Below are positions 27,759 to 46,355 of a stretch of 64,000 nt of DNA, in pieces. The position numbers and the translations under genes are program-made. The notes beneath the pieces are model-generated. The model worked only from the letters and a program-made list of their open reading frames with translations. It ran no database searches and was not told where the DNA came from. This stretch comes from Aquitalea aquatica (lineage in GTDB: Bacteria; Pseudomonadota; Gammaproteobacteria; Burkholderiales; Chromobacteriaceae), in NCBI RefSeq assembly GCF_013911085.1, contig NZ_JACERN010000042.1:1-64000 (forward strand), given 5' to 3'. Position 1 is the first letter of the stretch. Each line of letters begins with the position of its first letter.

Positions 27759-27775
27759 TGTGGCATTTTGTCGCA
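27759..27775. promoter_or_regulatory. 17-bp RegA/RoxR-type box 1
   Basis: TGTGGCATTTTGTCGCA, a 7-3-7 palindrome. It lies 83 bp upstream of the TonB receptor start on the minus strand; a weak -10 (CATCAT) sits about 33 bp further toward that gene. It is one of nine copies of the same box in this window, all intergenic. Confidence 0.7.
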
Positions 27776-27793
27776 GGCGGGAACTTTGCCGGC

Positions 27794-27810
27794 TGCGGCA
27801 ATTGGTCGCA
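27794..27810. promoter_or_regulatory. 17-bp RegA/RoxR-type box 2
   Basis: TGCGGCAATTGGTCGCA, 35 bp from box 1 centre to centre. It lies 82 bp upstream of the tonB start on the plus strand, so the pair may serve both divergent operons. Confidence 0.7.
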
Positions 27811-27891
27811 CGGAGGCGCGGAGAAATCCTGTTAAGGTTGCTCCCGCATTGGTAGGCGCATCGGCCTGCCTGGCAGCAAGGGGGAGAGCAA

Positions 27892-28605
27892 GTGCAGGCG
27901 ATGTTGCAGATGACACGGCCGGGTAGCAGACAGAATCCGCAGCACACCAGGGCCATTTGTGTGCTGGCGGTGTTGCTGCTGCATGCTGCTTTTGCCAACT
28001 GGTTGCTGGGCTTGCAGCAAACCCGGCCAGCGCAGGCGCTGCCGTCCCGGATTGCGGTGCAGATGCGCACCGCACAAGTCGCCATGCCGCAAAGCGTGGC
28101 CAAACCATTGCCCACTAAAGCGCAGCAGCCTGTCCATTCCTCCCGGCATGCAGCACAGGCCAAACCAAGGGCAGCGCAGCCAGTTTCCGCCGCGCTCATG
28201 GCCTCCGCCCATCCTGCTGCCCCTGCTGTGCTGTCCGGTACGGCGGCGGCTACCAGCACCGGTTCGGTCACTCCAACCGCTACAGCACCACAGGCAACGG
28301 CAGAGGCGCATTCGCCAGCCACGACCGAGGCCGGGTTCACCGCGGACTACCTGCACAACCCTGCACCGGTCTACCCACCGTCCTCTCGGCGTAACGGTGA
28401 AGAGGGCAGGGTGTTGCTGAGGGTGCGCGTTTCGGCCGCTGGGCAGGCAGAGGCGGTGGATGTCCAGCATGGCAGCGGTTTTTCCCGGCTGGACGAAGCG
28501 GCCAGAGAGGCCGTGGCCAACTGGCGTTTTACCCCCGCCCGGCGTGGAGGGCAGGCACTTGCCTCTACCGTCATCGTTCCCATTACTTTTCGCCTGGGCC
28601 ATTAA
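27892..28605 (+). CDS. tonB: Energy transducer TonB
   Basis: 237 aa from a GTG start, chosen because GGGGGAG lies 5 bp upstream; an ATG three codons later is possible. An N-terminal membrane anchor (ICVLAVLLLHAAFANWLLG) is followed by a long Pro/Ala-rich periplasmic linker and the TonB C-terminal domain (PVYPPSSRRNGEEGRVLLRVRVSAAG...RLDEAAREAVANWRFTPAR). It transmits the proton-motive force from ExbBD to outer membrane receptors. It is the first gene of tonB-exbB-exbD. Confidence 0.95.
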   Translation: MQAMLQMTRPGSRQNPQHTRAICVLAVLLLHAAFANWLLGLQQTRPAQALPSRIAVQMRTAQVAMPQSVAKPLPTKAQQPVHSSRHAAQAKPRAAQPVSAALMASAHPAAPAVLSGTAAATSTGSVTPTATAPQATAEAHSPATTEAGFTADYLHNPAPVYPPSSRRNGEEGRVLLRVRVSAAGQAEAVDVQHGSGFSRLDEAAREAVANWRFTPARRGGQALASTVIVPITFRLGH

Positions 28606-28637
28606 GCGCCGGGGCTGGTTTATTGCAAGGAAGCATC

Positions 28638-29378
28638 ATGGATACACAACTGGGTCTGGCCCATTTCTGGCAGCAGGGGGATGCGGTATCCCACACGCTG
28701 GCCATCTTGCTGGTGTTGATGTCGATTGCCAGCTGGAGCCTGCTGCTGATCAAACTGCTGGAGCAATGGCGCTTGCGCCAGGCTCTGCGTCATGCGTTGC
28801 CAGCCTTCTGGCAGGCGGGCAGCAAACAGGCCGCCCAGCAGGTGCTTGTGACACGTGACGGTAGCCAGCTACTGAGCGGAATTGCGCTCCAGGCCGAACA
28901 CGCCGCACAGGCTTATGCGGGTAAATCCGGCCTGGGCCTGGGGGGCGGGCTGGACGCGGGGGAGTATCTGGGACGAACCCTGCAACAGACCTTGCTGCAA
29001 GCGCAGGCCCGGCTGGAACAGGGCCTCACCATGCTGGCCTCCATTGGTGCCACCGCGCCTTTCGTTGGCCTGTTTGGTACGGTATGGGGGATTTATCACG
29101 CCCTGATCAGCCTGTCTGGCCATGGCCAGATGAACATCGACCAGGTGGCCGGGCCGGTGGGCGAGGCGCTGATCATGACCGCCATCGGCCTGTTTGTCGC
29201 CATCCCGGCGGTGCTGGCCTATAACGCCTGCACCCGCAACAACCGGCTGATGCTGGCCGCGCTGGAAGGCTTTGCCCATGGCCTGCATGCCTATCTGGTG
29301 GCTGGGGTGCGTCAGTACCCGTCATCGCCCATGCCAGACGGTGCACTACAGCCGCATTCCGCTGGCAAGGGGGTGTAA
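28638..29378 (+). CDS. exbB: ExbB, MotA/TolQ/ExbB proton channel protein
   Basis: 246 aa from the ATG after AAGGAAG. It has three membrane helices, with the conserved GLTMLASIGATAPFVGLFGTVWGIYHAL segment and PVGEALIMTAIGLFVAIPAVLAYNAC. It forms the stator channel that, with ExbD, energises TonB. Spacing is 32 bp from tonB and 3 bp to exbD. The loop after the first helix is somewhat longer than in E. coli ExbB. Confidence 0.95.
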   Translation: MDTQLGLAHFWQQGDAVSHTLAILLVLMSIASWSLLLIKLLEQWRLRQALRHALPAFWQAGSKQAAQQVLVTRDGSQLLSGIALQAEHAAQAYAGKSGLGLGGGLDAGEYLGRTLQQTLLQAQARLEQGLTMLASIGATAPFVGLFGTVWGIYHALISLSGHGQMNIDQVAGPVGEALIMTAIGLFVAIPAVLAYNACTRNNRLMLAALEGFAHGLHAYLVAGVRQYPSSPMPDGALQPHSAGKGV

Positions 29379-29381
29379 ACC

Positions 29382-29798
29382 ATGGCATTTCACGGCTTTT
29401 CATCTTCAGGCCAGCACGGTCAGCCCATGGCCGAAATCAACACCACCCCGCTGGTGGACGTGATGCTGGTGTTGCTGGTGGTGTTCATGATTACCGCGCC
29501 CTTGTTTCATCAGGCGGTGGGTATTGACCTGCCCAAAACAGTGGCCACGCAAGACAAGCCGCAGGAGAAGGTGCTGCACCTGACGCTGGCGCGAGACGGC
29601 AGCGTGGCGCTGGACGGGCAGGCCATCAGCCAGACAGCCCTTGGCGTGCAACTGAAAGCAGCCAGTGCCGGGAATCCGGAACTACAATTGCAGGCTGATC
29701 AGGCCACGCCGTATCAGGCCGTCGCCGCCGTGATGGCGCTGGTCCAGCAGGCCGGGGTGAATCGTATTGCCTTTGTCACCCAGCCTCTTGAACACTAA
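29382..29798 (+). CDS. exbD: ExbD, biopolymer transport protein
   Basis: 138 aa. A short cytoplasmic N terminus precedes one membrane helix bearing the proton-carrying aspartate (AEINTTPLVDVMLVLLVVFMI). A periplasmic ExbD/TolR domain follows. It completes the tonB-exbBD energising complex. The following ~220 bp to the COG0523 gene hold no gene I can support, only a weak hairpin near 29971-30005. Confidence 0.95.
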   Translation: MAFHGFSSSGQHGQPMAEINTTPLVDVMLVLLVVFMITAPLFHQAVGIDLPKTVATQDKPQEKVLHLTLARDGSVALDGQAISQTALGVQLKAASAGNPELQLQADQATPYQAVAAVMALVQQAGVNRIAFVTQPLEH

Positions 29799-30016
29799 AT
29801 ATTCGGCGCAGTACGTGTCCAAATTTTGCGTAAACCGGTAGTTATGCCAAGCCTGTCCCATAGATCGCTTTGGCCGATCTGCTGCCTTCACACGTAGAGC
29901 AGCGGCAGGCTGTCTGCCTTAGCGGTCTTCCGTACACTAGGCGGAAGATGGTTCCTTTCATCGTGTAAAAAGCCTGAAGGTGTAGAGAACACAGCAGGCA
30001 TTTTTCCCCATGTCTC

Positions 30017-31228
30017 TTAGATCGCGTTATCTTCCGGATTTAACACCCAGCAGGGGAAGGGATCAGCCAGGCCGGACCAGCCTTGCTCGCCGCTAGCCAG
30101 TTCTGCATCGGTCATCAGGCAGGCATCAAACCCGGCAATCAGTGCGGCTTGGTCCATCTTCATGCCGATCAGCACCAGTTCCTGCTGGCGGTCGCCCCAG
30201 GGCGCTTCCCAGCGCGCCTCAATCATTTCCACGCTTTCCGGATCTTCCGGCCAATCTTCTCTGGCGACCGCAGCCCACCACAAACCGGCACAGGCATGGC
30301 GTGAGATGGTACCCGCTTGAGACCAACTGCCAGCGAAATCCGGCCGGTTGGCCAACCAGAAGTAGCCTTTCGAACGTATCGCCCCCGGCCATTGGCAGGC
30401 AAACCAGTCCCACAGGCGCTGCGGGTGAAAGGGCCGACGGGCACGGTAGACGAAACTGCTGATGCCGTATTCCTCGCTCTCCGGTACATGCTCGCCGCGC
30501 AATTCGGTCAGCCATCCGGCGGCTTCCGCTGCCTTGTCGAAGTCGAAGCGGCCAGTATTGAGCACGCGCGTGAGGGGTACTGTGCCAAACGCACTGTGCA
30601 CGATGTCGGCGTGCGGATTGAGCGAGCGCAGAATGCTGTCGAGGCGGTCCAGCTCTTGCGGGCTGACCAGGTCGGTTTTGTTCAGCACGATCACGTCACA
30701 AAATTCCACTTGCTCAACCAGCAAATCCACCACGGCGCGATCGTCTTCTTCGCCCAGGCTTTCGCCACGGTCTGTCAGTTGGTCGCGGCAACTGTAATCG
30801 CGCAAAAAATTGTGGGCATCGACCACCGTCACCATGGTGTCCAGCCGGGCTATGTCCGACAGGCTTGCCCCGTCGTCATCGCGGAAGGTGAAGGTTTCTG
30901 CCACGGGCAACGGTTCGGCAATGCCTGTCGATTCGATCAAGAGGTAGTCAAAACGGCCAGTGCGTGCCAGTCGGTCAATTTCAATCAGCAGGTCTTCGCG
31001 CAAGGTGCAGCAAATGCAGCCATTGCTCATCTCGACCAGTTTTTCTTCGGCACGTGACAAGGCGGCACCACCCTCGCGCACCAGGCGGGCGTCGATATTG
31101 ACTTCCGACATGTCGTTGACGATGACGGCAACCCGCTTGCCTTCACGGTTGTTGAGGATGTGATTGAGCAGGGTGGTTTTGCCGGCGCCAAGAAAGCCGG
31201 ACAGCACGGTGACAGGGAGTTTTTGCAT
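30017..31228 (-). CDS. COG0523 family GTPase, zinc-linked metallochaperone (ZigA/YjiA type)
   Basis: 403 aa from the ATG after AAGGA. A G3E GTPase: Walker [10 protein letters not shown] (residues 11-19), the metal-binding motif GCICCTLR (C71, C73, C74), NKTD and the CobW C-terminal domain ([15 protein letters not shown]). Family members in Zur regulons deliver zinc to essential enzymes under zinc limitation. It lies next to a DUF1826 gene and znuABC with Zur boxes, which strongly supports the zinc-starvation role over cobalamin or nitrile hydratase roles. Transcribed with DUF1826, 34 bp downstream of it. Confidence 0.93.
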
Positions 31229-31262
31229 GGTTGTTCCTTGGGCGTTCAAATTAGGTGGCGGG

Positions 31263-31934: not shown

Positions 31935-32029
31935 CGTCGGGTGTCCTGGTCATCGCGCTGTCCGCCGCCGCCAGCGGCTTTCATGTTCTGTCAGGCGGGG
32001 GGAGCGGGCGTAAAAATAGTTTGCATAAT

Positions 32030-32071: not shown

Positions 32072-32091
32072 ATTTGAAAGTGAGAATACAC

Positions 32092-34806: not shown

Positions 34807-35688
34807 TCAGTGCGGATCTAGCGTGCCAAGACAGGCTAGCAATGCCAAAGCAAGCAGGCACAGGGCAATTTGCATGTTAACGGCGCGGATCAACCAGGGA
34901 ATGGCGCTGCGCTTGTCGCGCATGCGCGGAACAAGATAGTAGCGGTTGAACACGGCCAGCAGCACCATGCCGAGTATCGCCAGCAGTTTTAAGCCCAGCA
35001 GGATGGTATACGCGGAAAAACCATCGGGTAGCAAACTGCCGTTGATCAGATAGAAATTGCCCATGCCGGTGAGGATGACGACTGCAACAAGCGCATGACC
35101 CGCCGTGGAAAAGCGGATCAGCGCCTGCATGGCAGGCTGCCGCCATGGCCCGGTTTGCCGCATCAGTTGCAATACCAGCGGCAGCGCACCCAGCCATGCT
35201 GCCGCAGCGAGTAAATGCAGCAGGTCGTTGAGTTGATGGACTACGCCGAGCCAGCCCTCATTCATTGCCGCGTGACCACTGAGCGTCAGACTGGCCAATA
35301 ATGCGGTGGCAAGGAGTGCCGTCACTGGTGCAGCGCCGGCCCTTTGCCCGGCATGGCCGGACAGCACCAGCAGCAAGGCTGCTGCCAACTGCCAGCACCA
35401 GGCCCGACCGATACTGGATTCACCGGCCAGCATGGCCAGGCTGCTGATCTGCCAGCTGTCTGCCCAGCTATCGGCAAGGATGGCGTTGTGCAAGGGTAGT
35501 GCACACAAGGTGGCGAGCAGGATGAGCCAGCGAAGCCGCGCCAGCCTCGGCTGCCAGGCATGCCCGAGCCGGCTGCCCAGCCCGCCTGGCACCAGACTGA
35601 GCAGAAACCAGGCCGTGCCGAACAAGCACATGGCTGCACCGTCTGTCAGCCAGCGGCACAGCCATAACAAGTAATCAGCCGAGTTCAC
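34807..35688 (-). CDS. copD: CopD family copper import/resistance membrane protein
   Basis: 293 aa with about eight membrane helices; the C-terminal half matches the CopD domain (IRFSTAGHALVAVVILTGMGNFYLINGSLL...GLKLLAILGMVLLAVFNRYYLVPRM). CopD works with periplasmic CopC to bring copper across the inner membrane. Its start overlaps the copC stop by 4 bp, so the two are coupled. It is within the metal island, between the zinc genes and the Csp1-like gene. Confidence 0.9.
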   Translation of the reverse strand: MNSADYLLWLCRWLTDGAAMCLFGTAWFLLSLVPGGLGSRLGHAWQPRLARLRWLILLATLCALPLHNAILADSWADSWQISSLAMLAGESSIGRAWCWQLAAALLLVLSGHAGQRAGAAPVTALLATALLASLTLSGHAAMNEGWLGVVHQLNDLLHLLAAAAWLGALPLVLQLMRQTGPWRQPAMQALIRFSTAGHALVAVVILTGMGNFYLINGSLLPDGFSAYTILLGLKLLAILGMVLLAVFNRYYLVPRMRDKRSAIPWLIRAVNMQIALCLLALALLACLGTLDPH

Positions 35689-36050
35689 TTGCCTACGCTG
35701 AAGCTATACGTGCCGTTGGTCTTGTGGCCATCCACGGACAAGGCATGCCATTCCACCTGGTAGCTTCCTGCGGGCAATGGCTGGGCCGGTTTCACCACCA
35801 GTGTCTTGCCGCCATTGGTCAGCGTGGCTTCACCCAGCGCGATGTCCTGCTTGCTGGCGTTAATCAGCTTGATGCCGCTGAATTTCACATCCAGTGCTTC
35901 GGAAAATGTCAGGCTCAGGCTGGCAGGGCTGCTGGCTATGCTGTTGGCGGCCGGCTCGGCTGCTTTCAGATGGGCATGGGCCCAGGCGGCCGTGCTGGTG
36001 AACAGGCTGGCGGTGATGATCAGCAGGGCAAAACGGATAAAACGCAGCAT
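35685..36050 (-). CDS. copC: CopC periplasmic copper-binding protein
   Basis: 121 aa with AGGAG before the ATG. The signal peptide ends at AWA so the mature protein begins HAHLKAAEPA, placing His at position 1 as in Cu(II)-binding CopC. A second ligand His is in SVDGHKTNGTYSFSV at the C terminus, and the beta-sandwich core is intact. The methionine-rich Cu(I) loop of P. syringae CopC is missing, so this is the Cu(II)-only type. It is the first gene of copCD. Confidence 0.94.
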   Translation of the reverse strand: MLRFIRFALLIITASLFTSTAAWAHAHLKAAEPAANSIASSPASLSLTFSEALDVKFSGIKLINASKQDIALGEATLTNGGKTLVVKPAQPLPAGSYQVEWHALSVDGHKTNGTYSFSVGK

Positions 36051-36266
36051 GGGAACTCCTGTTGGTGTGAAAAAGATAGATTATAAAAAAACGATCCGGG
36101 CCTGCCGAGGCGACACGCCAAGCTAGCAGCGCAGTGCCTGCCATCCGGTGTTCAGGGCTGGCTGGCGGTCAGCTCCCCGGCGCATTGCCGTTTAATTTTG
36201 CGCGCAGATTGCATGATCTGGCGTAGCATTTAAATCTTATGTCCTGAAATATTGATTGGAGAAATG

Positions 36267-36701
36267 ATGGACCGTCGTGAAGCCATTGGAGCTGTTGGTG
36301 CCTTTACTCTGGCAGCATTGAGTACGGTGGGCCGGGCGGAGAGCATGCCTGCGGCGAGCGCACCTGTCAGCAAGACCGCTGCGCTGGCAGAGGCGGCAAG
36401 CCACTGTGTGCTGAATGGCCAGCACTGTCTGGCCCATTGCCTGTTCTTGCTGGGTAATGGTGATGATTCGATGGCTGATTGTTCCAAGGCCATCAACCAG
36501 ATGCTGGCGTGCTGTACGGCCTTGCAAAGCCTGGCAGCACAGGATTCGGCCTTGTTGCCGGCCATGGCCAAGGTGGCGCTGGAAGCCTGTACCGTATGCG
36601 AAAAAGCCTGCAAGCAGCACAGCAGCATGCACGCTCCGTGCCGCGCCTGCATGGAGTCCTGTGCGGAGTGCATCAGGCAGTGCCGTGCATTTGCTGCCTG
36701 A
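36267..36701 (+). CDS. Csp1-like Tat-exported four-helix copper storage protein
   Basis: 144 aa from the second of two adjacent ATG codons, which gives a 7-bp spacing to GGAG. A twin-arginine signal (MDRREAIGAVGAFTLAALSTVGRA) is followed by an all-helical domain with 14 cysteines in repeated CxxxC-like spacing (SHC...QHCLAHC...ADC...ACC...EACTVCEKAC...APCRACMESCAECIRQC). This is the DUF326/Csp pattern, where a cysteine-lined four-helix bundle stores many Cu(I) ions; Csp1 of methanotrophs has 13 Cys and is also Tat-exported. Placed between copCD and the copper/chelate importer. Confidence 0.9.
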   Translation: MDRREAIGAVGAFTLAALSTVGRAESMPAASAPVSKTAALAEAASHCVLNGQHCLAHCLFLLGNGDDSMADCSKAINQMLACCTALQSLAAQDSALLPAMAKVALEACTVCEKACKQHSSMHAPCRACMESCAECIRQCRAFAA

Positions 36702-36719
36702 GCCTGCAGGCCACGGCCC

Positions 36720-37496
36720 TCAGGCAGGCTGAGCATGGCGACCATGGTAAAACAGCGCAAAGCCGTCATCGGCGGTGATGCTGGAAATGGGCGTGTGATA
36801 TAGCTGGCTGAGCAAGGCCGGGGTCATTACTTCTGCCGTTGCCCCAGCCGCCAGCACGCGCCCCTGTTGCAGCAGCCAGCAATGCTGGCTGTAACGCCGG
36901 GCGGCATTCAGGTCGTGCAGCACCATGATGGTGAGCATATTGCGCTGGCGGGTTTGCTGCTCAATCAGTGCCAGTACTTGCTGCTGGTGTTGCAGGTCCA
37001 GCGCGCTGATGGGTTCGTCCAGCAGCAGGATGGACGGTTCACGCATCAATGCCTGTGCCAGAAACACCATCTGGCGCTGCCCGCCGCTCAGTTGGCATAG
37101 CGGCTGTTGCGCCACAGCGGACAAGCCCAGCTGCGCCAGTTGCTGCCGGGCTTGCTGCTGCAAGCTTTCCGGCACGCGCCAGCCCAGGGTTTGCAGCTTG
37201 CCCAGTAGTACCACTTCCACTGCACTCAGCCGGCTGTTGCTGCCACAGTCCTGCGGCAGCCAGGCCACCTTGGCGGGCAGGGTGCCGTGGTGGTGCTGCC
37301 AGTCGGGCTGACTGGCATGCCGGATGCTGCCGGCATAGGCCAGTTGCCCGGCCAGGGTGCGCAGCAGGGTGGATTTGCCGCAGCCATTGGGCCCCAGCAG
37401 GCAGGTGATGCTGCCTTGCGGGCCGCTGGCAAGGTCCAGCCCGTGCAGCACGGTTTGCCCGGCCAGGCGTACCGATAGCTGTGTGAGTTGCAGCAT
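36720..37496 (-). CDS. ABC transporter ATP-binding protein (FecE/BtuD type)
   Basis: 258 aa. Walker A GPNGCGKST, signature LSGGQRQM, Walker B ILLLDEP, switch His in VLHDLNAARRYS. It is the third gene of a three-gene importer operon running minus strand from the oprC promoter (binding protein, permease, ATPase). The family imports siderophores, heme or B12; here the neighbours suggest copper or a copper chelate. The permease stop is 1 bp before its start. Confidence 0.93.
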   Translation of the reverse strand: MLQLTQLSVRLAGQTVLHGLDLASGPQGSITCLLGPNGCGKSTLLRTLAGQLAYAGSIRHASQPDWQHHHGTLPAKVAWLPQDCGSNSRLSAVEVVLLGKLQTLGWRVPESLQQQARQQLAQLGLSAVAQQPLCQLSGGQRQMVFLAQALMREPSILLLDEPISALDLQHQQQVLALIEQQTRQRNMLTIMVLHDLNAARRYSQHCWLLQQGRVLAAGATAEVMTPALLSQLYHTPISSITADDGFALFYHGRHAQPA

Positions 37497-37497
37497 C

Positions 37498-38532
37498 TTA
37501 TTGCCCGCCTTTTCTACGCAAGATCAGCAGCAGGAAGAAGGGCAGGCCGATCAGCGCCGTGACAATGCCGATGGGAATCAAGCCGCCGGGTGACAACCAT
37601 TTGCCCAGTACCGAGGCCAGTGACAGTAACAAGGCACCCGACAGCGCCGCACCGGGAATCAACAGCCGGTGGTCCTCACCCAGCAGCATGCGCGCCATAT
37701 GCGGGGCAATCAGCCCGACAAAACCGATGGTGCCGACAAAGGCCACCGCCACGCCGGTGAGCAAGGACACCAGGGCCAGCGCGCGCCAGCGCAGGCGGCT
37801 TACCGTAATGCCCAGGCTGGCGGCGCGTTCATCTGACAGACTCAGCGCGGTAAAGCGCCAGGCGTCGCGCGCCAGTACGCCACAGGCCAGCAGCAGGGTA
37901 AGCCACATCAGTCCCACCGCATGCCAGCCGCTTTTGTACAGGCTGCCAAACAGCCAGAATACGATCTGCGCCAGGGCGTCCGGTGCGGCCAGGTATTGCA
38001 GCAAGGACAGCAGCGCCTGAAACAGGAATAGCAGCGCAATACCGGCCAGTACATAGGATTCGGCATTGCCACCACGGTGACGGCCAATCAGCAATACCGC
38101 ACTGCCGGCGACAAAGGCAAAGCCCAGCGCGCAAAGCGGCAGGCCCCAGGCTTCGGCCAGCCCCAGGCTGCTGCCCGCCACTATGAATAGGGCCGCGCCA
38201 AAACCGGCCCCCGCCGAAATGCCTAGTGTGTAGCTGCTGGCCAGCGGATTGTGCAGCACGGTCTGCATGACCAGCCCGGATACCCCCAGCGCCGCGCCCA
38301 CCGCCAGCGCCATCAGCGCCACCGGCAGGCGGATTTGCCACACGATGACGCCATCGCCCCCTTCCCCTTGCAGCAGGCTGTGCAGTACCTGAGTCATGCT
38401 CAGCTGTGCCGGGCCGCTGGCAATGTCCAGCAGCAAACTGCCAGCCAGCAACAGGGCTGCCAGCAGCAGCAAGCCGCTGCGGCCAAGCCAGGACTGCCAG
38501 CGGCCAGTCAGCGCGAGAGTCAGTGTGCTCAT
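37498..38532 (-). CDS. FecCD family ABC transporter permease
   Basis: 344 aa with about ten membrane helices. FecCD motifs include GAALGVSGLVMQTVLHNPLASSYTLGISAGAGFGAAL and IGFVGLIAPHMARMLLGEDHRLLIPGAALSGALLL. It forms the inner membrane channel as a homodimer with two ATPases. Its start overlaps the binding protein stop by 4 bp. Confidence 0.94.
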   Translation of the reverse strand: MSTLTLALTGRWQSWLGRSGLLLLAALLLAGSLLLDIASGPAQLSMTQVLHSLLQGEGGDGVIVWQIRLPVALMALAVGAALGVSGLVMQTVLHNPLASSYTLGISAGAGFGAALFIVAGSSLGLAEAWGLPLCALGFAFVAGSAVLLIGRHRGGNAESYVLAGIALLFLFQALLSLLQYLAAPDALAQIVFWLFGSLYKSGWHAVGLMWLTLLLACGVLARDAWRFTALSLSDERAASLGITVSRLRWRALALVSLLTGVAVAFVGTIGFVGLIAPHMARMLLGEDHRLLIPGAALSGALLLSLASVLGKWLSPGGLIPIGIVTALIGLPFFLLLILRRKGGQ

Positions 38533-39638
38533 GGTTTGAGAGACAGCAACCAGCTGCCGCTATAGGCAACCGGCAGATAGCGCTGGTGGTACTGGCGCAA
38601 TTCGGCCAGCGGGTCGACATCGGCAAACTGCGCCGGGTACAGCTGCTTGGTGATAAAGGCCATGGCGGTGTAGTCGTTCAGGCTGCGGCACAAGCCGTGT
38701 TCGATAGCATAAACATGCTGTTGGCGCACGGCGGGCAGGCTGCTCCAGCCGGGGCGGCCCAGATAGGCCTGCAGGCTGGTGCGGGCGTCCGCAGCGTTAT
38801 GGTTGTATCCGAGTTTGACTGCCTTGGGGCGGTTTACCCAGGACGAGCCGGCAATGAAGATGTAGTCCGGCTGGGCGGCCAGCACGGCTTCCGGGTTCAG
38901 CGGCCCCCAGTTGGCGGCAATGCGGCCATTGGCCAGATTATCCGCGCCCAGGGTGTCCAGCAGCTTGCCCCACATGGTGTCGCGGTAGGTATTGCCCACC
39001 GTGTCTGCGCCGTCGCGGCCCAGCTCCACATATACCTTTGGCTTGCTGCTGGCTTTGGCCAGTGCCACGCGACGCAGGATGTCACGGTATTTGCGCTGGT
39101 ATTGCTGCGCCAGTTCCTCTGCACGGATATTGCTGCCCATCACCGCCCCAATGGCGCGGGTGCTGGCCAGATGCCGCTCCAGCGTCTGGGCGTTGTAGTC
39201 GATCACCACGATGGGAATGCCCGCCTGGGTGATTTGCTGTACCGCCGTGCCCAGCACCTTGAAGCTGCCCTCGGGCAGGATCAGCACATCCGGCTTCAGC
39301 GCAATCACCTTTTCCGCGCTGAAGGTGTTGTCCTCGCTATAACCCACGTCCGGCATGGTTTTGAGTGCCGGAATCACCTGCTGATAAAGCGCCCAGTTGG
39401 CCGGACGCCAGCCAGCCCAGGGGTTTTTGCTGATGCCTACCACGCGTTTCCAGCCCTCGGTACCGGCGATGGCGGTGAAATCCTCGAAATTGAAACCCAG
39501 CACTACCCGTTTGGCCGGAACATCCACCACCACCTTGCGGTTAAGGGCATCACTGATGGTGAGCGGTTTGGCAAAGGCGGGCAGGGCCAGCAGGGAGGAC
39601 AGGCACAGGGCAAGGATGGCGGTGCGGCGGCTGGTCAT
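38529..39638 (-). CDS. Periplasmic binding protein of the FecCD-type importer
   Basis: 369 aa from the ATG at 39638, directly followed by a signal peptide (RRTAILALCLSSLLALPAFA). It is a BtuF/FhuD-like class III binding protein. The earlier in-frame ATG at 39671 coincides with a TAAAAT -10 on this strand, which argues for the downstream start. It is divergent from the OprC-like receptor, with two 17-bp boxes between, so receptor and importer probably form one pathway. No classical ligand motif identifies the cargo; free copper, a copper chelate or another metallophore are possible. Confidence 0.9.
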   Translation of the reverse strand: MTSRRTAILALCLSSLLALPAFAKPLTISDALNRKVVVDVPAKRVVLGFNFEDFTAIAGTEGWKRVVGISKNPWAGWRPANWALYQQVIPALKTMPDVGYSEDNTFSAEKVIALKPDVLILPEGSFKVLGTAVQQITQAGIPIVVIDYNAQTLERHLASTRAIGAVMGSNIRAEELAQQYQRKYRDILRRVALAKASSKPKVYVELGRDGADTVGNTYRDTMWGKLLDTLGADNLANGRIAANWGPLNPEAVLAAQPDYIFIAGSSWVNRPKAVKLGYNHNAADARTSLQAYLGRPGWSSLPAVRQQHVYAIEHGLCRSLNDYTAMAFITKQLYPAQFADVDPLAELRQYHQRYLPVAYSGSWLLSLKP

Positions 39639-39669: not shown

Positions 39670-39714
39670 ATTTTAAGGAAAGGGCGGGATGGGTGGCTGC
39701 GGCAAATTGTCGCA
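39670..39714 (-). promoter_or_regulatory. Promoter of the importer operon with 17-bp box 3
   Basis: The box TGCGGCAAATTGTCGCA lies at 39698-39714. On the minus strand a good -10 (TAAAAT, 39675-39670) predicts a start near 39663, putting the box centre at about -43. No -35 hexamer is needed if the bound regulator replaces it, the class II activator layout. Confidence 0.65.
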
Positions 39715-39720
39715 GCATGG

Positions 39721-39737
39721 TGCGGCAATATGTCACA
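39721..39737. promoter_or_regulatory. 17-bp RegA/RoxR-type box 4 (oprC side)
   Basis: TGCGGCAATATGTCACA, 23 bp from box 3 centre to centre. A weak -10 (TAAGCT, 39760-39765) downstream would put it near -43 of an oprC start. The leader before oprC (39772-39895) also has a CCGAAC-tgt-GTTCGG hairpin. Confidence 0.65.
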
Positions 39738-39895
39738 GCGCTTTGCCTTGGCAAGCTTGTAAGCTCGCAAGATTGACAGGCCAGGCCGCCGAACTGTGTT
39801 CGGCAAGCATGCTTGGGCCTGATCGGCATAACAGGGCTGGCAATCACCAGTTTGACCGGCCCGGCTGATTATCCGTTGCTCACTTGGGAAGCCTC

Positions 39896-42094
39896 ATGCA
39901 TTACCAGACCAAACCGGCCGTTGTGGCCGTCACCCTTGCGCTGTCCGCCCTTGGCCAGCTGGCTTATGCCGCCGACAGCACTGAAGTACAGCAAATGCCG
40001 GAGGTAGTTGTCCACGGCAGCCGGCCGGACAACCAGGCCAATGGCAGCAGCCTCAGCCAGACACAACTGGCTGGGCAAGCAGCGCGCAGCAGCGACAGCG
40101 CCCAACTGCTGCAAGACATCCCCGGCCTGACTCTGCACGCAGCCGGTGGTTTTTCCAGCCTGCCGGTGCTGCGTGGCCTGGCCGACGACCGCCTGCTGGT
40201 CAAGACCGATGGCGCCAGCCTGATTGCCTCCTGTCCCAATCACATGAACTCGCCGCTGTCCTATATGGATGCCAGCAAGGTGGACAGCGTGCAGGTGTAT
40301 AACGCTGCCGCTCCGGTCAGCGCCGGGGGCGACAATATCGGTGGAGTGATCGTGGCCAAGTCGGCTGCGCTGCAGTTTGCCGAGCCAGGCCAGATATTGC
40401 AGGGCGGCGAAGTAGGGGCCTTCTACCGCAGCAATGGCGATGCGCGTGGTGCCAATGCCAGTGCTACCCTGGCCAACGACCATGTCAGCATCAACTACAC
40501 CGGTTCCACTGCCCGTAGTAATAACTACGACGCCGCGGCCAACTTCAAGAGCGCCGGTGCCGCAGCTTCCGGTCGTGCCTGGATGGATGGCGACACTGTG
40601 GGCTCCACCGCTTACAAGACCGAAAACCATGAACTGGGCGTGGCCTGGCGTGACTACTACCAGCTGCTGGAAGCCAAGGTGGGTGTGCAGCGCACCCCAT
40701 ACGAAGGCTTTGCCAACCAGCGCATGGACATGACCGACAACAGCAGCGACCAGCTGAACCTGCACTACAACGGCCAGTTTGCCTGGGGCGAGCTGGATGC
40801 GCGGCTGTACAGCCAGTATGTGCGTCATCACATGGATTTCGGTAATGACAAACAGCTGGATTACATGGGCGACATCGGCATGCCGATGGACACCGCCAGC
40901 CATACCCAGGGTGGCAGCCTCACGCTGGATCTGCCGCTGAATGCCAGCAACAAGCTGAAGCTGGGTACCGAATTCCAGCGCTACCAGTTGAATGACTGGT
41001 GGCCGCCAGTCGCAGGGGACACCATGATGATGGGGCCGGAAACCTTCTGGAACATCAAGAACGGCAAGCGTGACAAACTGGATGTGTTTGCCGAATGGCA
41101 GGCGGACTGGACCCCGCAATGGCGCAGCATCATCGGTACCCGTCTGAGCCAGGTGAAAACCAATGCCGACAATGTGTCCGGCTATAGCAGCATGTATGAC
41201 AGCGACGCTGCTGCCTTCAATGCCCAGAGCCATGCCCGTACCGACAACAATATCGACTTCTCGGCCTTGACCCGCTACATCCCCTCGGCAACCGAGCAGT
41301 ACGAACTGGCTTTTGCCCGCAAGACCCGTTCGCCCAATCTGTACGAGCGCTATACCTGGGCCACCGACAGCATGACCTCCATCATGAATAACTTTGCCGG
41401 TGATGGTAACGGTTATGTCGGTAACCCTAACCTGAAGCCGGAAGTGGCCAATACCTTAAGCAGCAGCCTTGACTGGCATGCGGCGGATGGCGAAGCGTGG
41501 CTGTTCAGGGTCAGTCCGTATTACAGCTACGTGCAAAACTATATCGACGCCAAGCGTTATGATGCCAGCAGTACCGCTACTACCGGCTATGTGGTGCTGC
41601 AATACATCAACCAGAACGCCCAGCTATACGGCGTGGATGTCAGCGGCAAGCTGCAGCTGGCCAAAAACACGGCCTATGGCAGCTTTGATGCCACCGCGCA
41701 GCTGAGTTACACCCGTGGCGAAAGCCTGACGACCGGCGACAATCTGTACAACATCATGCCGCTCAACGCCAAGCTGGCGCTGGTGAATAAGCTGGGGCAA
41801 TGGACCAGCACTGCCGAATGGCAGGCCGTACGCGCCAAGACTGAGGTTTCTGCCGTGCGTAATGAGGCCAAAACCCCTGGCTATAGCTTGTTCAACTTGC
41901 GCACCCGCTATGAAACCAAGCAATTCAGCGTGGATGTGGGCATCGACAATGTGTTCAACCGCTTCTACACGCTGCCGCTGGGCGGGGCCTATACCGGCCA
42001 GGGTGCCACCATGGGCATCAACAGCATTGCCTGGGGTGTTGGCGTGCCGGGAGCTGCCCGTTCGCTGTATACCGCCTTCAACTACAAGTTCTGA
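39896..42094 (+). CDS. oprC: OprC/NosA-like TonB-dependent copper receptor
   Basis: 732 aa from the ATG after GGAAG. A signal peptide (VTLALSALGQLAYAA), TonB box-like MPEVVVHG, a plug and a full barrel are present. The copper-site residues described for P. aeruginosa OprC, a CxxxM strap and an HxM, are both there: C113-PNH-M117 in the plug and H311-H-M313 in an early barrel segment (YVRHHMDFG). Methionine-rich stretches (GDTMMMGPETF) add to this. That makes ionic copper uptake the best-supported role. It is divergent from the FecCD-type importer and followed by a terminator. Confidence 0.88.
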   Translation: MHYQTKPAVVAVTLALSALGQLAYAADSTEVQQMPEVVVHGSRPDNQANGSSLSQTQLAGQAARSSDSAQLLQDIPGLTLHAAGGFSSLPVLRGLADDRLLVKTDGASLIASCPNHMNSPLSYMDASKVDSVQVYNAAAPVSAGGDNIGGVIVAKSAALQFAEPGQILQGGEVGAFYRSNGDARGANASATLANDHVSINYTGSTARSNNYDAAANFKSAGAAASGRAWMDGDTVGSTAYKTENHELGVAWRDYYQLLEAKVGVQRTPYEGFANQRMDMTDNSSDQLNLHYNGQFAWGELDARLYSQYVRHHMDFGNDKQLDYMGDIGMPMDTASHTQGGSLTLDLPLNASNKLKLGTEFQRYQLNDWWPPVAGDTMMMGPETFWNIKNGKRDKLDVFAEWQADWTPQWRSIIGTRLSQVKTNADNVSGYSSMYDSDAAAFNAQSHARTDNNIDFSALTRYIPSATEQYELAFARKTRSPNLYERYTWATDSMTSIMNNFAGDGNGYVGNPNLKPEVANTLSSSLDWHAADGEAWLFRVSPYYSYVQNYIDAKRYDASSTATTGYVVLQYINQNAQLYGVDVSGKLQLAKNTAYGSFDATAQLSYTRGESLTTGDNLYNIMPLNAKLALVNKLGQWTSTAEWQAVRAKTEVSAVRNEAKTPGYSLFNLRTRYETKQFSVDVGIDNVFNRFYTLPLGGAYTGQGATMGINSIAWGVGVPGAARSLYTAFNYKF

Positions 42095-42115
42095 GCCGAC
42101 TGCGTTTAGTCATTC

Positions 42116-42142: not shown

Positions 42143-42160
42143 TTGGCAGGCAGTTTGGGC

Positions 42161-42206
42161 TGCGACAATATGCCACATTTTTAATTCCGGCCAATTGATT
42201 TATATT
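42161..42206 (+). promoter_or_regulatory. 17-bp box 5 and promoter of candidate small RNA 1
   Basis: TGCGACAATATGCCACA at 42161-42177, followed by a good -10 (TATATT, 42201-42206). The predicted start near 42213 puts the box centre at -44, as at the importer and ECF promoters. No start codon with a ribosome site follows before the terminator. Confidence 0.6.
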
Positions 42207-42212
42207 GTATTA

Positions 42213-42307
42213 CGCAATACAAGCACTCCAAGGCTTGCTAGCTCATCTGCATGACTGTCCTGACCAGATAGATAAAATGCCCGCCCTGACCAGGTGGGCA
42301 TTTTTAT
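42213..42307 (+). ncRNA. Candidate small RNA 1 (about 95 nt)
   Basis: It is a short unit with its own predicted promoter and a terminator: ATGCCCGCC pairs with GGTGGGCAT (42277-42301, one G-T pair) and is followed by T5. There is no plausible ORF inside. It lies after the oprC terminator, so it is not just read-through. It may be a regulatory RNA induced with the copper/cyd genes, or a vestigial leader. Evidence is structural only. Confidence 0.45.
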
Positions 42308-42337
42308 TTCATATTTATTTCATGCGGCTTGTTTTGA

Positions 42338-42381
42338 TGCGGCATTCTGTCACATTTCATTTTATTGGTGATGGATATACC
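42338..42381 (+). promoter_or_regulatory. 17-bp box 6 and promoter of candidate small RNA 2
   Basis: TGCGGCATTCTGTCACA at 42338-42354, with a -10-like TATACC at 42376-42381 giving a start near 42388 and the box at about -42. It is the second box-promoter-terminator unit in tandem between oprC and cydP. Confidence 0.55.
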
Positions 42382-42387
42382 ATTTCA

Positions 42388-42449
42388 GCACCTCAAGCAA
42401 ACTTCAAACACTTTGTTGAGTGCCGCCTCCCCCTGAGGCGGCTTTTTTA
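42388..42449 (+). ncRNA. Candidate small RNA 2 (about 62 nt)
   Basis: The transcript would end in a strong terminator, GCCGCCT / AGGCGGC (42422-42442) with a 7-nt C-rich loop and six T. Upstream of the terminator is an unpaired A/C-rich stretch of the kind used for base-pairing by small RNAs. No ORF is present. The sequence differs from candidate 1. Confidence 0.45.
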
Positions 42450-42472
42450 TTTGCGCGGTATGTTTTTCTGAT

Positions 42473-42489
42473 TGTGGCATTATGTCGCA
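42473..42489. promoter_or_regulatory. 17-bp RegA/RoxR-type box 7 (cyd promoter, distal)
   Basis: TGTGGCATTATGTCGCA, 55 bp upstream of box 8 (about five helical turns) and 117 bp before cydP. It lies just past the terminator of candidate small RNA 2. Confidence 0.7.
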
Positions 42490-42527
42490 CTTGAAAAACC
42501 ACTTGAAAATAAAGGGCATTGGCGACT

Positions 42528-42544
42528 TGCGACATTTGGTCGCA
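42528..42544. promoter_or_regulatory. 17-bp RegA/RoxR-type box 8 (cyd promoter, proximal)
   Basis: TGCGACATTTGGTCGCA, 62 bp before cydP. A poorer relative, TATGGCATGGTGTCGCT, lies at 42563-42579. Paired boxes before cyd fit control of a terminal oxidase by a RegA/RoxR-type regulator, as known for RoxR and the bd-type cyanide-insensitive oxidase in Pseudomonas. Confidence 0.7.
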
Positions 42545-42605
42545 TTCTGGCAATTCCAGTTATATGGCATGGTGTCGCTGTTTTTTATTGCAGGTGCATG
42601 AGGCC

Positions 42606-42767
42606 ATGAAAGACAAAAAAAATTATCGCCGGGATATTGTCCTGGTATTGCTGGTGAAGTTGATTCTGTTGGCCCTGTTGTGGTCGGCATTTTTCCGTGA
42701 ACGGCCGGCCGTTGTGCCGACCAAGGCAGCCACGCACTGGTTGCAACACGAGGAGGTAGCACCATGA
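42606..42767 (+). CDS. cydP: Cytochrome bd oxidase putative small subunit CydP
   Basis: 53 aa. A basic N terminus (KDKKNYRRD) is followed by one membrane helix (IVLVLLVKLILLALLWSAFF) and a short periplasmic or cytoplasmic tail, the layout of the CydP family encoded directly before cydA in many proteobacteria. The stop overlaps the cydA start (ATGA). It likely helps assemble or stabilise the oxidase. It has a GAGG ribosome site. Confidence 0.8.
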   Translation: MKDKKNYRRDIVLVLLVKLILLALLWSAFFRERPAVVPTKAATHWLQHEEVAP

Positions 42768-44350
42768 ATGAAGCACTGGTAGATATATCGCGGTTGCAGT
42801 TTGCTGTAACTGCCTTGTATCACTTTCTGTTTGTTCCGTTAACACTGGGGATGGTGTGGATTCTGGTTATCATGGAATCCGCCTATGTCATTACCAAACA
42901 GGAAATCTACCGCGACATGACCCGCTTCTGGGGCAAGTTGTTCGGTATCAATTTCGCGCTTGGGGTGACCACCGGTATTACCATGGAATTCCAGTTTGGT
43001 ACCAACTGGGCGTATTACTCGCATTATGTCGGAGATATTTTCGGCACCCCGCTGGCCATTGAAGGCTTGATGGCGTTCTTTCTGGAATCCACCTTTATCG
43101 GCCTCTTCTTCTTTGGCTGGGACCGACTGTCACGCGGCAAACATTTGCTGGTGACCATCCTGATGGCCATCGGCTCCAATCTGTCCGCCTTGTGGATTCT
43201 GATTGCCAACGGCTGGATGCAGGACCCGGTAGGCGCGCATTTCAATTACCAGACCATGCGCATGGAAATGAGCTCGATGTGGGACATCGTGTTCAACCCG
43301 GTGGCACAGGCCAAGTTCGTCCACACCGTCAGCGCCGGTTATGTGACGGCCGCCTGCTTTGTGCTGGGTATTTCCAGCTGGTACATCCTGAAAGGCCGTG
43401 ACCTGCCGTTTGCCCGCCGCAGCTTCCGTATTGCCGCGGCCTTCGGTTTTGCCTCGGCCTTGTCGGTGATTGTGCTGGGCGATGAGTCCGGCTACACCGT
43501 GGCCGAATCACAGCAAACCAAGATTGCTGCGATGGAAGGCATCTGGGATACCGAGCCGGCACCGGCTGCGCTGACCTTGTTTGCCATTCCGGACCAGGCT
43601 AATCGCACCAATCACTACGAAATCCGCCTTCCTTATGTGATGGGCCTGATTGGCACCCGCTCTACCACCAAGGAAATCCCAGGTATCAAGCAGATTGTGG
43701 CGCGTAACAAGCAGCGCATTCTGAATGGTCAGCAAGCGGTGATTGCGCTGGAAGCCCTGCGCAAGGCACCGCAGGATGCTGCTTTGCGTGCAGCCTTCGA
43801 AAAGAATCAGGGCGACCTGGGTTTTGGCCTGCTGCTGAAAAAGTATGTGGCTGACGTACGCACCGCCACCCCGGCCATCATCGACCAGGCGGCCTGGAGC
43901 ACCATTCCCAATGTGGCGCCGATGTTCTGGAGCTTCCGCCTGATGGCTGGTCTGGGCTTCAGCTTCCTGCTGCTGTTTGGCTGCGCCTTCTGGTTCTCCC
44001 TGCGTAACCGCTTTGCCGGCAAGACCTGGCTGCTCAAATGGGCGCTGTTGTGGATTCCCATGCCGTGGATTGCTGCCGAGCTGGGCTGGGTGGTGGCCGA
44101 ATATGGCCGCCAGCCGTGGACGGTGTACGGCCTGCTGCCGACCCATCTGTCCACCTCCTCGCTGACCGCGGGCAGTGTGGTGGCCTCGCTCAGCGGCTTT
44201 GTGCTGTTCTACACCGGCCTGCTGATTGCCGAAATGTTCCTGATGGTGAAGTCCGCCCGTCTGGGCCCGGCCAGCCTGGGTACCGGCCGCTACCACCAAG
44301 AAACAGCAACCCCGCACGGCAAGCCGCAACTGGCTGGCAAGGAGGCTTGA
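42764..44350 (+). CDS. cydA: Cytochrome bd ubiquinol oxidase subunit I (CydA)
   Basis: 528 aa. It oxidises quinol and reduces oxygen to water using hemes b558, b595 and d, with no copper. The N-terminal heme ligand His is H20 in FAVTALYHFLF. GITMEFQFGTNW, the long E. coli-type Q-loop (ESQQTKIAAMEGIWDTEPAPAALTLF through GLLLKKYV) and the late MAGLGFSFLL region are all present. The long Q-loop marks a true CydAB rather than the shorter-looped cyanide-insensitive CioAB. Second gene of cydPABX. Confidence 0.97.
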   Translation: MNEALVDISRLQFAVTALYHFLFVPLTLGMVWILVIMESAYVITKQEIYRDMTRFWGKLFGINFALGVTTGITMEFQFGTNWAYYSHYVGDIFGTPLAIEGLMAFFLESTFIGLFFFGWDRLSRGKHLLVTILMAIGSNLSALWILIANGWMQDPVGAHFNYQTMRMEMSSMWDIVFNPVAQAKFVHTVSAGYVTAACFVLGISSWYILKGRDLPFARRSFRIAAAFGFASALSVIVLGDESGYTVAESQQTKIAAMEGIWDTEPAPAALTLFAIPDQANRTNHYEIRLPYVMGLIGTRSTTKEIPGIKQIVARNKQRILNGQQAVIALEALRKAPQDAALRAAFEKNQGDLGFGLLLKKYVADVRTATPAIIDQAAWSTIPNVAPMFWSFRLMAGLGFSFLLLFGCAFWFSLRNRFAGKTWLLKWALLWIPMPWIAAELGWVVAEYGRQPWTVYGLLPTHLSTSSLTAGSVVASLSGFVLFYTGLLIAEMFLMVKSARLGPASLGTGRYHQETATPHGKPQLAGKEA

Positions 44351-44353
44351 GTC

Positions 44354-45490
44354 ATGTTTGATTACCCGACAATCAAATTTATCTGGTGGTTGCTGGTGGG
44401 CGTGTTGCTGATCGGCTTTGCCATCATGGATGGCCACGACATGGGCGTGGGCGCATTGCTGCCTTTTGTTGGTCGCAGCGATACCGAACGCCGTGTGGTG
44501 ATCAATACCATCGCCCCGCACTGGGATGGCAATCAGGTGTGGTTCATCACCGCCGGTGGCGCCATCTTCGCCGCCTGGCCCTTTGTCTATGCCACGGCCT
44601 TTTCCGGTTTTTACTGGGCGATGCTGGCGGTGTTGTGGTCCTTGTTCTTCCGCCCGGTCGGTTTTGATTACCGCAGCAAGATCGAAGACCCGCGCTGGCG
44701 TGCCTTCTGGGACTGGGGCCTGTTTGTCGGTGGTTTCGTGCCGCCGGTGATCTTTGGCGTGGCATTCGGCAATCTGCTGCAAGGCGTGCCTTTCCATTTT
44801 GACGACACCCTGCGCGTGTTCTACGAAGGCAGCTTCTGGGCCTTGCTCAACCCGTTTGCCCTGCTGTGCGGTCTGGTATCGGCCAGCATGATCCTGCTGC
44901 AAGGTGCCACCTACCTGATGCTGCGCACCGAGGAGAAGATGGCACAACGTGCGCGCCGCGCCGCCATGCTGTTTGGCGTGCTGACTATCGTGCTGTTTGT
45001 GCTGGGCGGCCTGTGGGTGGGCCATCTGGATGGTTACGTGATTACCGCTGGTGGTGAAGCCGCCGCGCAGTCCAACCCGCTGGCCAAAACCGTGGTGCGT
45101 GCCGCTGGAGCCTGGCTGGCCAACTACCAGCGTTATCCGCTGACCATGGCCCTGCCGTTGCTGGGCATTGTCAGCGCCGCTGCTGCAGTGTCGCTGGCGC
45201 TGGTGCGCAAAGCAGGCCTGGCCTTTATCGCCTCCAGCCTGGTGCAGGCCGGGGTGATTGGCACGGCGGGTGTCAGCCTGTTTCCCTTCCTGCTGCCGTC
45301 CAGCTCGGACCCGCGTTCCAGCCTGACAGCCTGGGACGCCACGTCCAGCCAGATGACGCTGAACACCATGTTCTGGGCTGCGCTGATCTTCACGCCCATC
45401 GTGCTGAGCTACACCGCCTGGTGCTACCGCGTGATGCGCGGCAAGGTAACCGAGCAGCACATCCGAACCAACAGCAAGAGTGTTTACTGA
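44354..45490 (+). CDS. cydB: Cytochrome bd ubiquinol oxidase subunit II (CydB)
   Basis: 378 aa with about eight helices. Family blocks are FAIMDGHDMGVGALLPF near the N terminus, APHWDGNQVWFITAGGAIFAAWP and FRPVGFDYRSKIEDPRWRAFWDW. Starts 3 bp after cydA and partners it in the membrane oxidase. Confidence 0.97.
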   Translation: MFDYPTIKFIWWLLVGVLLIGFAIMDGHDMGVGALLPFVGRSDTERRVVINTIAPHWDGNQVWFITAGGAIFAAWPFVYATAFSGFYWAMLAVLWSLFFRPVGFDYRSKIEDPRWRAFWDWGLFVGGFVPPVIFGVAFGNLLQGVPFHFDDTLRVFYEGSFWALLNPFALLCGLVSASMILLQGATYLMLRTEEKMAQRARRAAMLFGVLTIVLFVLGGLWVGHLDGYVITAGGEAAAQSNPLAKTVVRAAGAWLANYQRYPLTMALPLLGIVSAAAAVSLALVRKAGLAFIASSLVQAGVIGTAGVSLFPFLLPSSSDPRSSLTAWDATSSQMTLNTMFWAALIFTPIVLSYTAWCYRVMRGKVTEQHIRTNSKSVY

Positions 45491-45507
45491 AGCGAAAGGA
45501 CAAAATC

Positions 45508-45603
45508 ATGTGGTATTTCGCCTGGATGTTGGGGCTGCCGCTGGCCGTGGCCATGGGGGTCATCAATGCGGTGATTGAGGAAAGCCTGCATCACGATGAT
45601 TGA
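45508..45603 (+). CDS. cydX: Cytochrome bd oxidase small subunit CydX
   Basis: 31 aa. The sequence MWYFAWMLGLPLAVAMGVIN matches the CydX pattern MWYFAWxLG, one membrane helix with an acidic tail (EESLHHDD). CydX is needed for stable, active bd oxidase. It has an AAAGGA ribosome site, starts 17 bp after cydB and ends just before a strong terminator. Confidence 0.93.
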   Translation: MWYFAWMLGLPLAVAMGVINAVIEESLHHDD

Positions 45604-45625
45604 TACAGAGTAAGTGGTGTACAGG

Positions 45626-45653
45626 GCGACGCAGCGAGTGCTGCGTCGCTTTT
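45626..45653 (+). terminator. Rho-independent terminator of cydPABX
   Basis: GCGACGCAGC pairs perfectly with GCTGCGTCGC around a 4-nt loop (agtg region) and is followed by four T. It separates cydX from the response regulator gene. Confidence 0.9.
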
Positions 45654-45710
45654 GTGCGGTTGGCGTTGCTGCCTGTGACGCGTGTTGCAGGCATGAATGA
45701 AGGAGTGGCC

Positions 45711-46235
45711 ATGAACGTGTTGCTGGTGGATGATGATGTCGATTTTTGCCAGGTACTGGCGCGCACCCTCAGGCGGCGTCAGCTGGATGTGCTGCTGGCA
45801 CACAATGGCCGCGAGGCGCTGAGTCATGCTGCGGATAGTTGCCAGCGTATCATTCTGGATTTGAACCTGGGCGGGGAGAACGGGCTGAACCTGCTGCCCG
45901 CCTTGCGCACCCATTTCAGTGACAGCCGTATTCTGGTGCTGACCGGTTATGCTAGCATTGCCACGGCGGTGGAGTCGATCAAGCTGGGAGCCACCCAGTA
46001 TCTGCCCAAGCCAGCCTCGGTGGATGACATTCTGCAGGCCTTTGCGCAGGCCGAACCAGACCCGGACTTGCCCATCTCGCCGCGGCCGGTGTCCGTGCGG
46101 CGGCTGGGTTGGGAATACATTCAGCGCATCCTGCTGGAGAATAATGGCAATGTTTCTGCCACCGCCCGGGCGCTGGGCATGCACCGCCGCACCTTGCAGC
46201 GCATGCTGGCCAAGCATCCGCCTTCGGCTGTGTAG
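45711..46235 (+). CDS. RegA/PrrA/RoxR-type redox response regulator
   Basis: 174 aa from the ATG with AGGAG 6 bp upstream. The receiver domain has the acidic pocket D7-D9, phosphoacceptor D50 (IILDLNLGGENGLNLLP), a switch Thr in VLTGYAS and Lys in YLPKPAS. The C terminus is the short Fis-like HTH of the RegA family (LGWEYIQRILLENNGNVSATARALGMHRRTLQRMLAK), the most diagnostic part. Such regulators control oxidases and respond to redox state through a membrane RegB/RoxS kinase. No sensor kinase gene is in this window, so the partner is elsewhere or this is an orphan. It sits between cyd and the ECF sigma gene, both with matching boxes. Confidence 0.9.
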   Translation: MNVLLVDDDVDFCQVLARTLRRRQLDVLLAHNGREALSHAADSCQRIILDLNLGGENGLNLLPALRTHFSDSRILVLTGYASIATAVESIKLGATQYLPKPASVDDILQAFAQAEPDPDLPISPRPVSVRRLGWEYIQRILLENNGNVSATARALGMHRRTLQRMLAKHPPSAV

Positions 46236-46309
46236 ACCTTGTCTGGCCGAGCCAGTCCGCTGATGAACCGCGAGCCAGAGGAAGGTGCTTAGTCGCCAAA
46301 CTGCCGGAC

Positions 46310-46355
46310 TGTGACAATTTGCCACATGGTGCTGTCAGTGGGCGCTGTCTATGAT
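46310..46355 (+). promoter_or_regulatory. 17-bp box 9 and promoter of the ECF sigma gene
   Basis: TGTGACAATTTGCCACA at 46310-46326 with a -10 TATGAT at 46350-46355. The predicted start at about 46362 puts the box centre at -44. This shows the sigma-receptor-MbnP cluster belongs to the same putative regulon and argues for the downstream start codon of the sigma gene. Confidence 0.65.

Follow-up and report, generated by a model that had tools for sequence, protein, structure and literature searches.

A RegA-type box and a putative copper-supply and respiration regulon in Aquitalea aquatica and its family

The two-component systems RegB/RegA, PrrB/PrrA, ActS/ActR, RegS/RegR and RoxS/RoxR are the closest described relatives of the arrangement reported here for a 64,000-nucleotide stretch of Aquitalea aquatica (contig NZ_JACERN010000042.1; hereafter the window), in which a 17-bp palindrome, TGYGRCA-N3-KGYCRCA (the box), recurs nine times. 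The likeness lies in domains, RegB motifs, a RegR/PrrA-type box and oxidase targets; the differences are a family-wide box before PCuAC and other copper genes, another at or close to where regB begins, small RNAs that form a linked family, an orphan second RegA within the island, and family-model scores below the curated cut-offs. RegA types act on metal genes elsewhere too, Bradyrhizobium RegR controlling copCAB and Methylomonas RegA the feo iron-uptake genes in the available text of PMC4064962 and PMC13274454, but these cases concern one copper operon, or iron, whereas in A. aquatica one box picks out genes for copper import, copper chaperoning and oxidases. The Bordetella copper-acquisition system CrtA/CrpH has in common with the window a TonB-dependent receptor with a PepSY_TM protein, a link to cyo and a bd oxidase required when copper is limiting; it is controlled post-transcriptionally by the upstream open reading frame CruR (PMC12914433 and PMC13038864, available parts), in place of which A. 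aquatica has a transcriptional RegA-type box. In the literature searched, with subscription papers and preprints mostly outside it, we found no RegA-type copper-acquisition regulon and no bacterial copper-sparing small RNA.

All nine boxes listed by the first-pass annotation are present, giving 16 strand-matches against 0.03 expected from dinucleotide shuffles. As claimed, each lies upstream of a likely gene and none inside one; some are overlapped by mechanical open reading frames with early start codons. The further statement that all precede metal-uptake or oxidase genes holds in general but not for the boxes at 42161 and 42338, each of which precedes a small-RNA-like unit upstream of cydPABX. 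All nine fit GNGRC-N5-GNCRC, with half-sites 5 bp apart as in the published sites of RegR (GNGRCRTTNNGNCGC) and PrrA (YSCGGC(5)GWCRMA), both given in the accessible part of PMC5506826; the literal RegR string is matched by three of the nine. A Rhodobacter RegA chromatin immunoprecipitation peak at ccoN, GCGACCGTTCGTCGC, shares that form in the portion of PMC5359404 available. The half-sites and spacer therefore agree with the RegA/PrrA-type site proposed earlier and not with a CRP or FNR site, and a RegA-type regulator for the boxes is well supported. We consider it likely that a RegB/RegA (PrrBA, RoxSR) system uses the nine boxes as operators and that they belong to a family regulon centred on copper supply for respiration. 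The boxes and their surroundings are:

23831..25387, minus strand: PepSY_TM membrane protein (Pfam PF03929)
25400..27676, minus strand: TonB-dependent receptor adjoining the PepSY_TM gene (Pfam PF00593)
27759..27775: RegA-type box (pattern match) between tonB-exbBD and the divergent TonB-dependent receptor/PepSY_TM pair
27794..27810, plus strand: second box of the tonB pair, with TAAGGT at the right spacing for tonB
27892..29798, plus strand: tonB, exbB and exbD (Pfam)
34807..39638, minus strand: BtuCDF/FhuB-type ATP-binding cassette importer, then CopC (PF04234) and CopD (PF05425)
39698..39714, minus strand: importer-operon box, TAAAAT 31 bp from its centre
39721..39737, plus strand: oprC box, TAAGCT 31 bp from its centre
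39884..42094, plus strand: OprC-like TonB-dependent copper receptor (TIGR01778 best family; CxxxM and HxM motifs)
42161..42177, plus strand: box of small-RNA unit s1
42209..42311, plus strand: small-RNA-like unit s1, with hairpin loop ACUCCAAG, hairpin loop CUGACCA and terminator loop CUGACCA
42338..42354, plus strand: box of small-RNA unit s2
42386..42452, plus strand: small-RNA-like unit s2 with terminator
42473..42489, plus strand: box upstream of cydPABX
42528..42544, plus strand: second box upstream of cydPABX
42606..45603, plus strand: cydP, cydA, cydB and cydX, a copper-free bd oxidase (NF045611, TIGR00203 and TIGR02106 above cut-off)
45711..46235, plus strand: orphan RegA-family response regulator, RegA2, without an adjoining RegB (NF033791, 154.5 bits)
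46310..46326, plus strand: box of the unit below, with -10 TATGAT at 46350
46384..50238, plus strand: extracytoplasmic function (ECF) sigma factor, FecR-type anti-sigma factor and TonB-dependent siderophore-type receptor

Over the whole A. aquatica genome the box occurs at 16 places, against one for a reversed control pattern. Of the seven outside the window, one (C12:990, L024) falls in an MscS-type coding sequence and is probably a chance match; the other six are:

L021: two boxes, one before a third small-RNA-like unit (s3) and one at the regB start
L022: box upstream of cyoABCD
L023: box before a DUF1775 (YcnI-type) gene
L025: box between PCuAC and a MarC-family gene
L026: box before a second OprC-like receptor gene (oprC2), whose product is 75% identical to the window receptor

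The genome-wide scan proposed with the original prediction thus concentrates the box before copper, respiratory and regBA genes. Both OprC-like receptors carry the CxxxM and HxM copper motif, which is described for OprC in the available text of PMC7558416, and TIGR01778 is the best family for both, at 139.7 and 138.0 bits against a cut-off of 472.45. The DUF1775 identity was confirmed in the A. aquatica genome; in the comparison across genomes the YcnI and MarC assignments mark position only. Summed over 61 genomes of the family, 263 exact boxes compare with 47 reversed-pattern controls. By our reading, copper, respiratory, metal-receptor, regBA or small-RNA units account for 38 of the 42 exact boxes in G001-G004; the other four comprise two in coding sequences (L045 and L046), one flanked by efflux genes (L057) and one that is unplaced (L043). 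The tonB-side pair (27759 and 27794) is also present in G003, G005, G006 and G007, and in a Vogesella-type genome (G049) a box precedes a gene of the MbnP copper-binding family (TIGR04052 above cut-off).

The most constant target tested is PCuAC. Its loci, located by protein search and not by the box, came from 30 genomes in 10 genera, and the orthologous-promoter comparison proposed earlier found a box between -56 and -84 at every one. Of these boxes 17 are exact, 12 deviate at one base and 1 at two, against 0/359 control windows at one mismatch or fewer. Among 32 genomes outside the family, selected as box-rich, 25 have a PCuAC match, and 8/27 loci carry a box at that threshold against 2/240 controls. 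The regB start gave a similar outcome in 57 genomes (59 with a RegA match, minus two too near a contig end): at the start or close to it, 40 carry an exact box and, once a single mismatch is allowed, 48 carry one. This total combines 34 fetched genomes (18 exact, 7 one-mismatch; controls 1/107 at one mismatch or fewer) with 23 read from listings and loci (22 exact, 1 one-mismatch), four of which had been selected as box-rich. In Vogesella-type genomes the box is not on the start codon but some 130 bp before the aligned start. Since a box covering a start codon cannot be an activator site, negative feedback repression is the simplest reading there, and the regB box probably serves as a repressor site. 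In G016, G024 and G038 (L113, L126, L121) a distantly OprC-like receptor, with 33-34% identity in its first part, diverges from regB across the box.

The distance from box to promoter is likewise regular. From box centre to first -10 base, the peak is at 31 bp in the 30 PCuAC promoters (score 3.71, mean 1.33), at 32 bp in 25 s3 small-RNA units (2.71, mean 1.09), and at 31-32 bp, weaker and less sharp, in 16 oriented A. aquatica sites. This places the centre near -43, in agreement with the -42 to -44 given initially, so that the box replaces a -35 element. Of the 16 sites, those of small-RNA units 1 and 2, ECF, the importer operon and YcnI have a good -10 at this spacing; the -10 is fair at oprC, oprC2, PCuAC and box 27794, whereas the two cyd boxes, 27759 toward tonB, and cyo have a poor one. 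Because the ECF -10, TATGAT (46350-46355), overlaps the ATG at 46351, translation probably starts at 46384.

Two proteins in the genome give full-length matches above 150 bits to the RegA-family model, namely RegA1 (contig 34, beside RegB) and RegA2 in the window. Both combine Pfam Response_reg and HTH_8, that is, a receiver and a Fis-type helix-turn-helix (HTH) with no central ATPase domain, and RegA1 matches the solved PrrA domain 1umq at 3e-13. A RegA match is found in 59 of the 61 family genomes. The aligned RegB sequences keep the H-box and redox-active Cys in 45/45 rows (two organisms counted twice) and the quinone motif GGxxNP in all 43 rows covering the region, two further rows being truncated. 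Since these features are kept, RegB likely responds to a reduced quinone pool, a cue proposed for it in the available text of PMC9147068 and PMC13274454. Copper-driven RegA dimerisation via Cys156, the Rhodobacter model, is ruled out by the lack of the residue in all six aligned RegA proteins.

At cyoABCD the box takes a different position. In five aligned Aquitalea promoters, read by eye, a -35/-10-like pair is kept and the box lies 14 bp after the -10, a candidate repressor position from which RegBA may repress the copper-requiring bo3 oxidase. A separate FNR-like TTGA...ATCAA was also seen by eye upstream of cyo. For the bd oxidase the predicted link to the box holds for one cydA paralogue and not for the other of the two: a box is present at 6/18 CydA loci (those of the island type and, in addition, of G035, G041 and G056), with control windows that include neighbouring true boxes (3/117 exact). 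For the window CydA the best family match stays below that family's cut-off.

These elements suggest the following mechanism. Copper or oxygen shortage would slow the heme-copper oxidases and leave the quinone pool reduced, whereupon RegB would phosphorylate RegA. RegA would then occupy the 17-bp box, which stands in for the -35 element some 43 bp before the start, and activate copper uptake and delivery (OprC-type receptors, TonB-ExbBD, the importer with CopC/CopD, PCuAC and the DUF1775 YcnI-type protein), the copper-free oxidase cydPABX and at least three small-RNA units. The box just after the promoter-like sequence of cyoABCD would block the copper-requiring oxidase, and that on or near the regB start codon would serve feedback repression; the same boxes are probably recognised by the orphan RegA2, encoded downstream of cydPABX. 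The bd switch fits the report that a Bordetella cydAB deletion mutant does not grow under copper limitation (PMC12914433, available part). Gene content and conservation support the copper focus of the regulon; as for the signal, the target genes would suggest copper limitation. The full proposal, in which RegBA is these bacteria's long-missing copper-starvation regulator, acting through the reduced quinone pool, with RyhB-like RegA-activated small RNAs and a bo3-to-bd switch, is put forward as a tentative one that we regard as possible and somewhat doubtful.

The strongest alternative, to which we give only slightly less than even weight, is an ordinary RegBA oxygen/redox regulon that includes copper genes for oxidase assembly, with copper status no signal at all. 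RegA regulons elsewhere include oxidases and nosZ (PMC5359404 and PMC8191878, available parts), and boxes 105 bp upstream of nosZ in G001 (TIGR04244 above cut-off) and 443 bp upstream of feoB in G043 would suit such a regulon. It accommodates less readily the constancy of PCuAC and the boxes at outer-membrane copper receptors, TonB, CopC/CopD, DUF1775 and MbnP. A number of observations, the feoB box among them, weigh against the copper-centred RegBA interpretation. Oxygen limitation alone could drive the system; 12 of the 18 CydA loci have no box within 450 bp, and 9/57 regB regions none at one mismatch or fewer; in G009 exact boxes are no more frequent than the control pattern (3 against 4); a box precedes a major facilitator superfamily gene in G058 and lies within a LysR-type coding sequence in G056. 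The generic GNGRC-N5-GNCRC is unspecific (37 found, 23.5 expected), and the proteins score below curated cut-offs for what are nonetheless their best families (RegA1 169.8 and RegA2 154.5 bits against 250 for NF033791; RegB 149.8 against 350 for NF033792). The equivalent of Cys156, which precedes the HTH in R. capsulatus RegA, is missing as noted above. For cyo, the automatic promoter scan did not report the promoter, and RegA of Burkholderia pseudomallei is an activator of cyo as well as of cyd in the available text of PMC8191878.

Between oprC and cydP, s1 and s2 each have a box, a -10, a hairpin and a terminator, and s3 is situated between a QseC-type kinase gene and regB. Searching the 61 family genomes with an s3-core model, built from 10 training-set members with the box excluded, gave 29 matches; for 25 of these a same-strand box with one mismatch or none stands 53-81 nucleotides upstream; on the opposite strand the best box has 3-6 mismatches. 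Outside the training set the box is present for 15/19, the four weakest matches being those without. By genus the figures are 10/10 for Aquitalea, 12/19 for g2, 2/2 for g5 and 1/1 for g8, with 32 genomes lacking a match. The hairpin loop ACUCCAAG and a terminator loop YGACCA are common to s1 and s3, and the s3 model matches s1 weakly (E 0.00048). One of seven pairs in the s3 terminator is changed on both sides; covariation is weak and conservation mainly of sequence. No credible match to s1, s2 or s3 was found among the Rfam 15 covariance models. A seed search for targets in four Aquitalea genomes (CTTGGAGT followed by ATG) gave 48 matches against 10 for the reversed seed, with 29 inspected for a start codon, and revealed no convincing conserved target. 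In G035 an s3-type unit stands directly upstream of cydP-cydA. In G000 and G001 (L021 7742-7763; L035) s3 has a second hairpin, whose loop region also shows UCCAAG, and G003 holds two copies of the sRNA-sRNA-cyd unit (L062, L063; contigs 34, 35), each behind its own OprC-type receptor gene.

It is possible, though we incline against it, that s1 and s2 serve cydPABX as leaders or attenuators and are not free small RNAs. They are directly upstream of cydP on the same strand, with terminators that could allow read-through; against this, two more boxes stand between s2 and cydP, and in Aquitalea s3 cannot be a leader because the next gene, preceding regB, is on the opposite strand. RyhB-type metal-sparing small RNAs act under the metal regulator Fur. 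The units described here would share with them the placing of small RNAs under a metal or respiration regulator and differ in having a RegA-type box instead of Fur control and no Rfam match. They are predicted to be RegA-driven and suggest a copper-sparing layer.

The first-pass annotation had named the 45711-46235 product, RegA2, for binding studies, and its recognition helix, identical to the canonical one of RegA1, keeps it as a candidate. Since the helices are the same, both proteins may bind. That RegA2 is the dedicated regulator of the nine local boxes is nevertheless unlikely. Its place within the island and the 11-17 exact boxes in the three genomes that have it (G000, G003 and G005) would favour such a role, but it occurs in only those three of 61 genomes, has no adjoining kinase, and boxes at regB, PCuAC and the small RNAs exist without it. 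Aquitalea genomes lacking RegA2 (G001, G002, G004, G006, G007) hold 7-9 exact boxes each and one canonical RegA. Because these genomes keep their boxes, canonical RegBA is the likelier putative binder. Assignment to a CRP/FNR-type or other palindrome-binding regulator is very improbable. One box (TGTGACA...) resembles half a CRP site and the FNR-like sequence stands upstream of cyo, but the half-sites and 5-bp spacer, which rule out the CRP and FNR readings, and the box at regB itself in most genomes point to a RegA type.

Some further observations accompany these results. At window positions 32074-34569 and 30017-31390, judged from translation, are a Znu-type zinc importer and a CobW-type GTPase, with no boxes. 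A box precedes an exported protein with ACASCGC near its N-terminus and no Pfam match (L063 6756-7763; L039 3609 region); in G001 its reading frame looks broken after the first part. In G004 (L049 3452-3630) a relative of the 47869 receptor is preceded by three identical boxes at 54-bp intervals together with a variant one as the fourth. In one outside family (f16), the order-level genomes G075, G122, G165, G203 and G239 have 6-14 boxes each, with controls of 0-1 and no PCuAC match.

How Gram-negative bacteria sense copper shortage, unlike excess, is poorly known, and acquisition under copper starvation is called less well known in the available text of PMC6769254. The box supplies a testable target list in many species; the mechanism and the small-RNA function stand as hypotheses. 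If they are true, failing respiration would act as a proxy for copper and would explain a copper-shortage response without a copper sensor.

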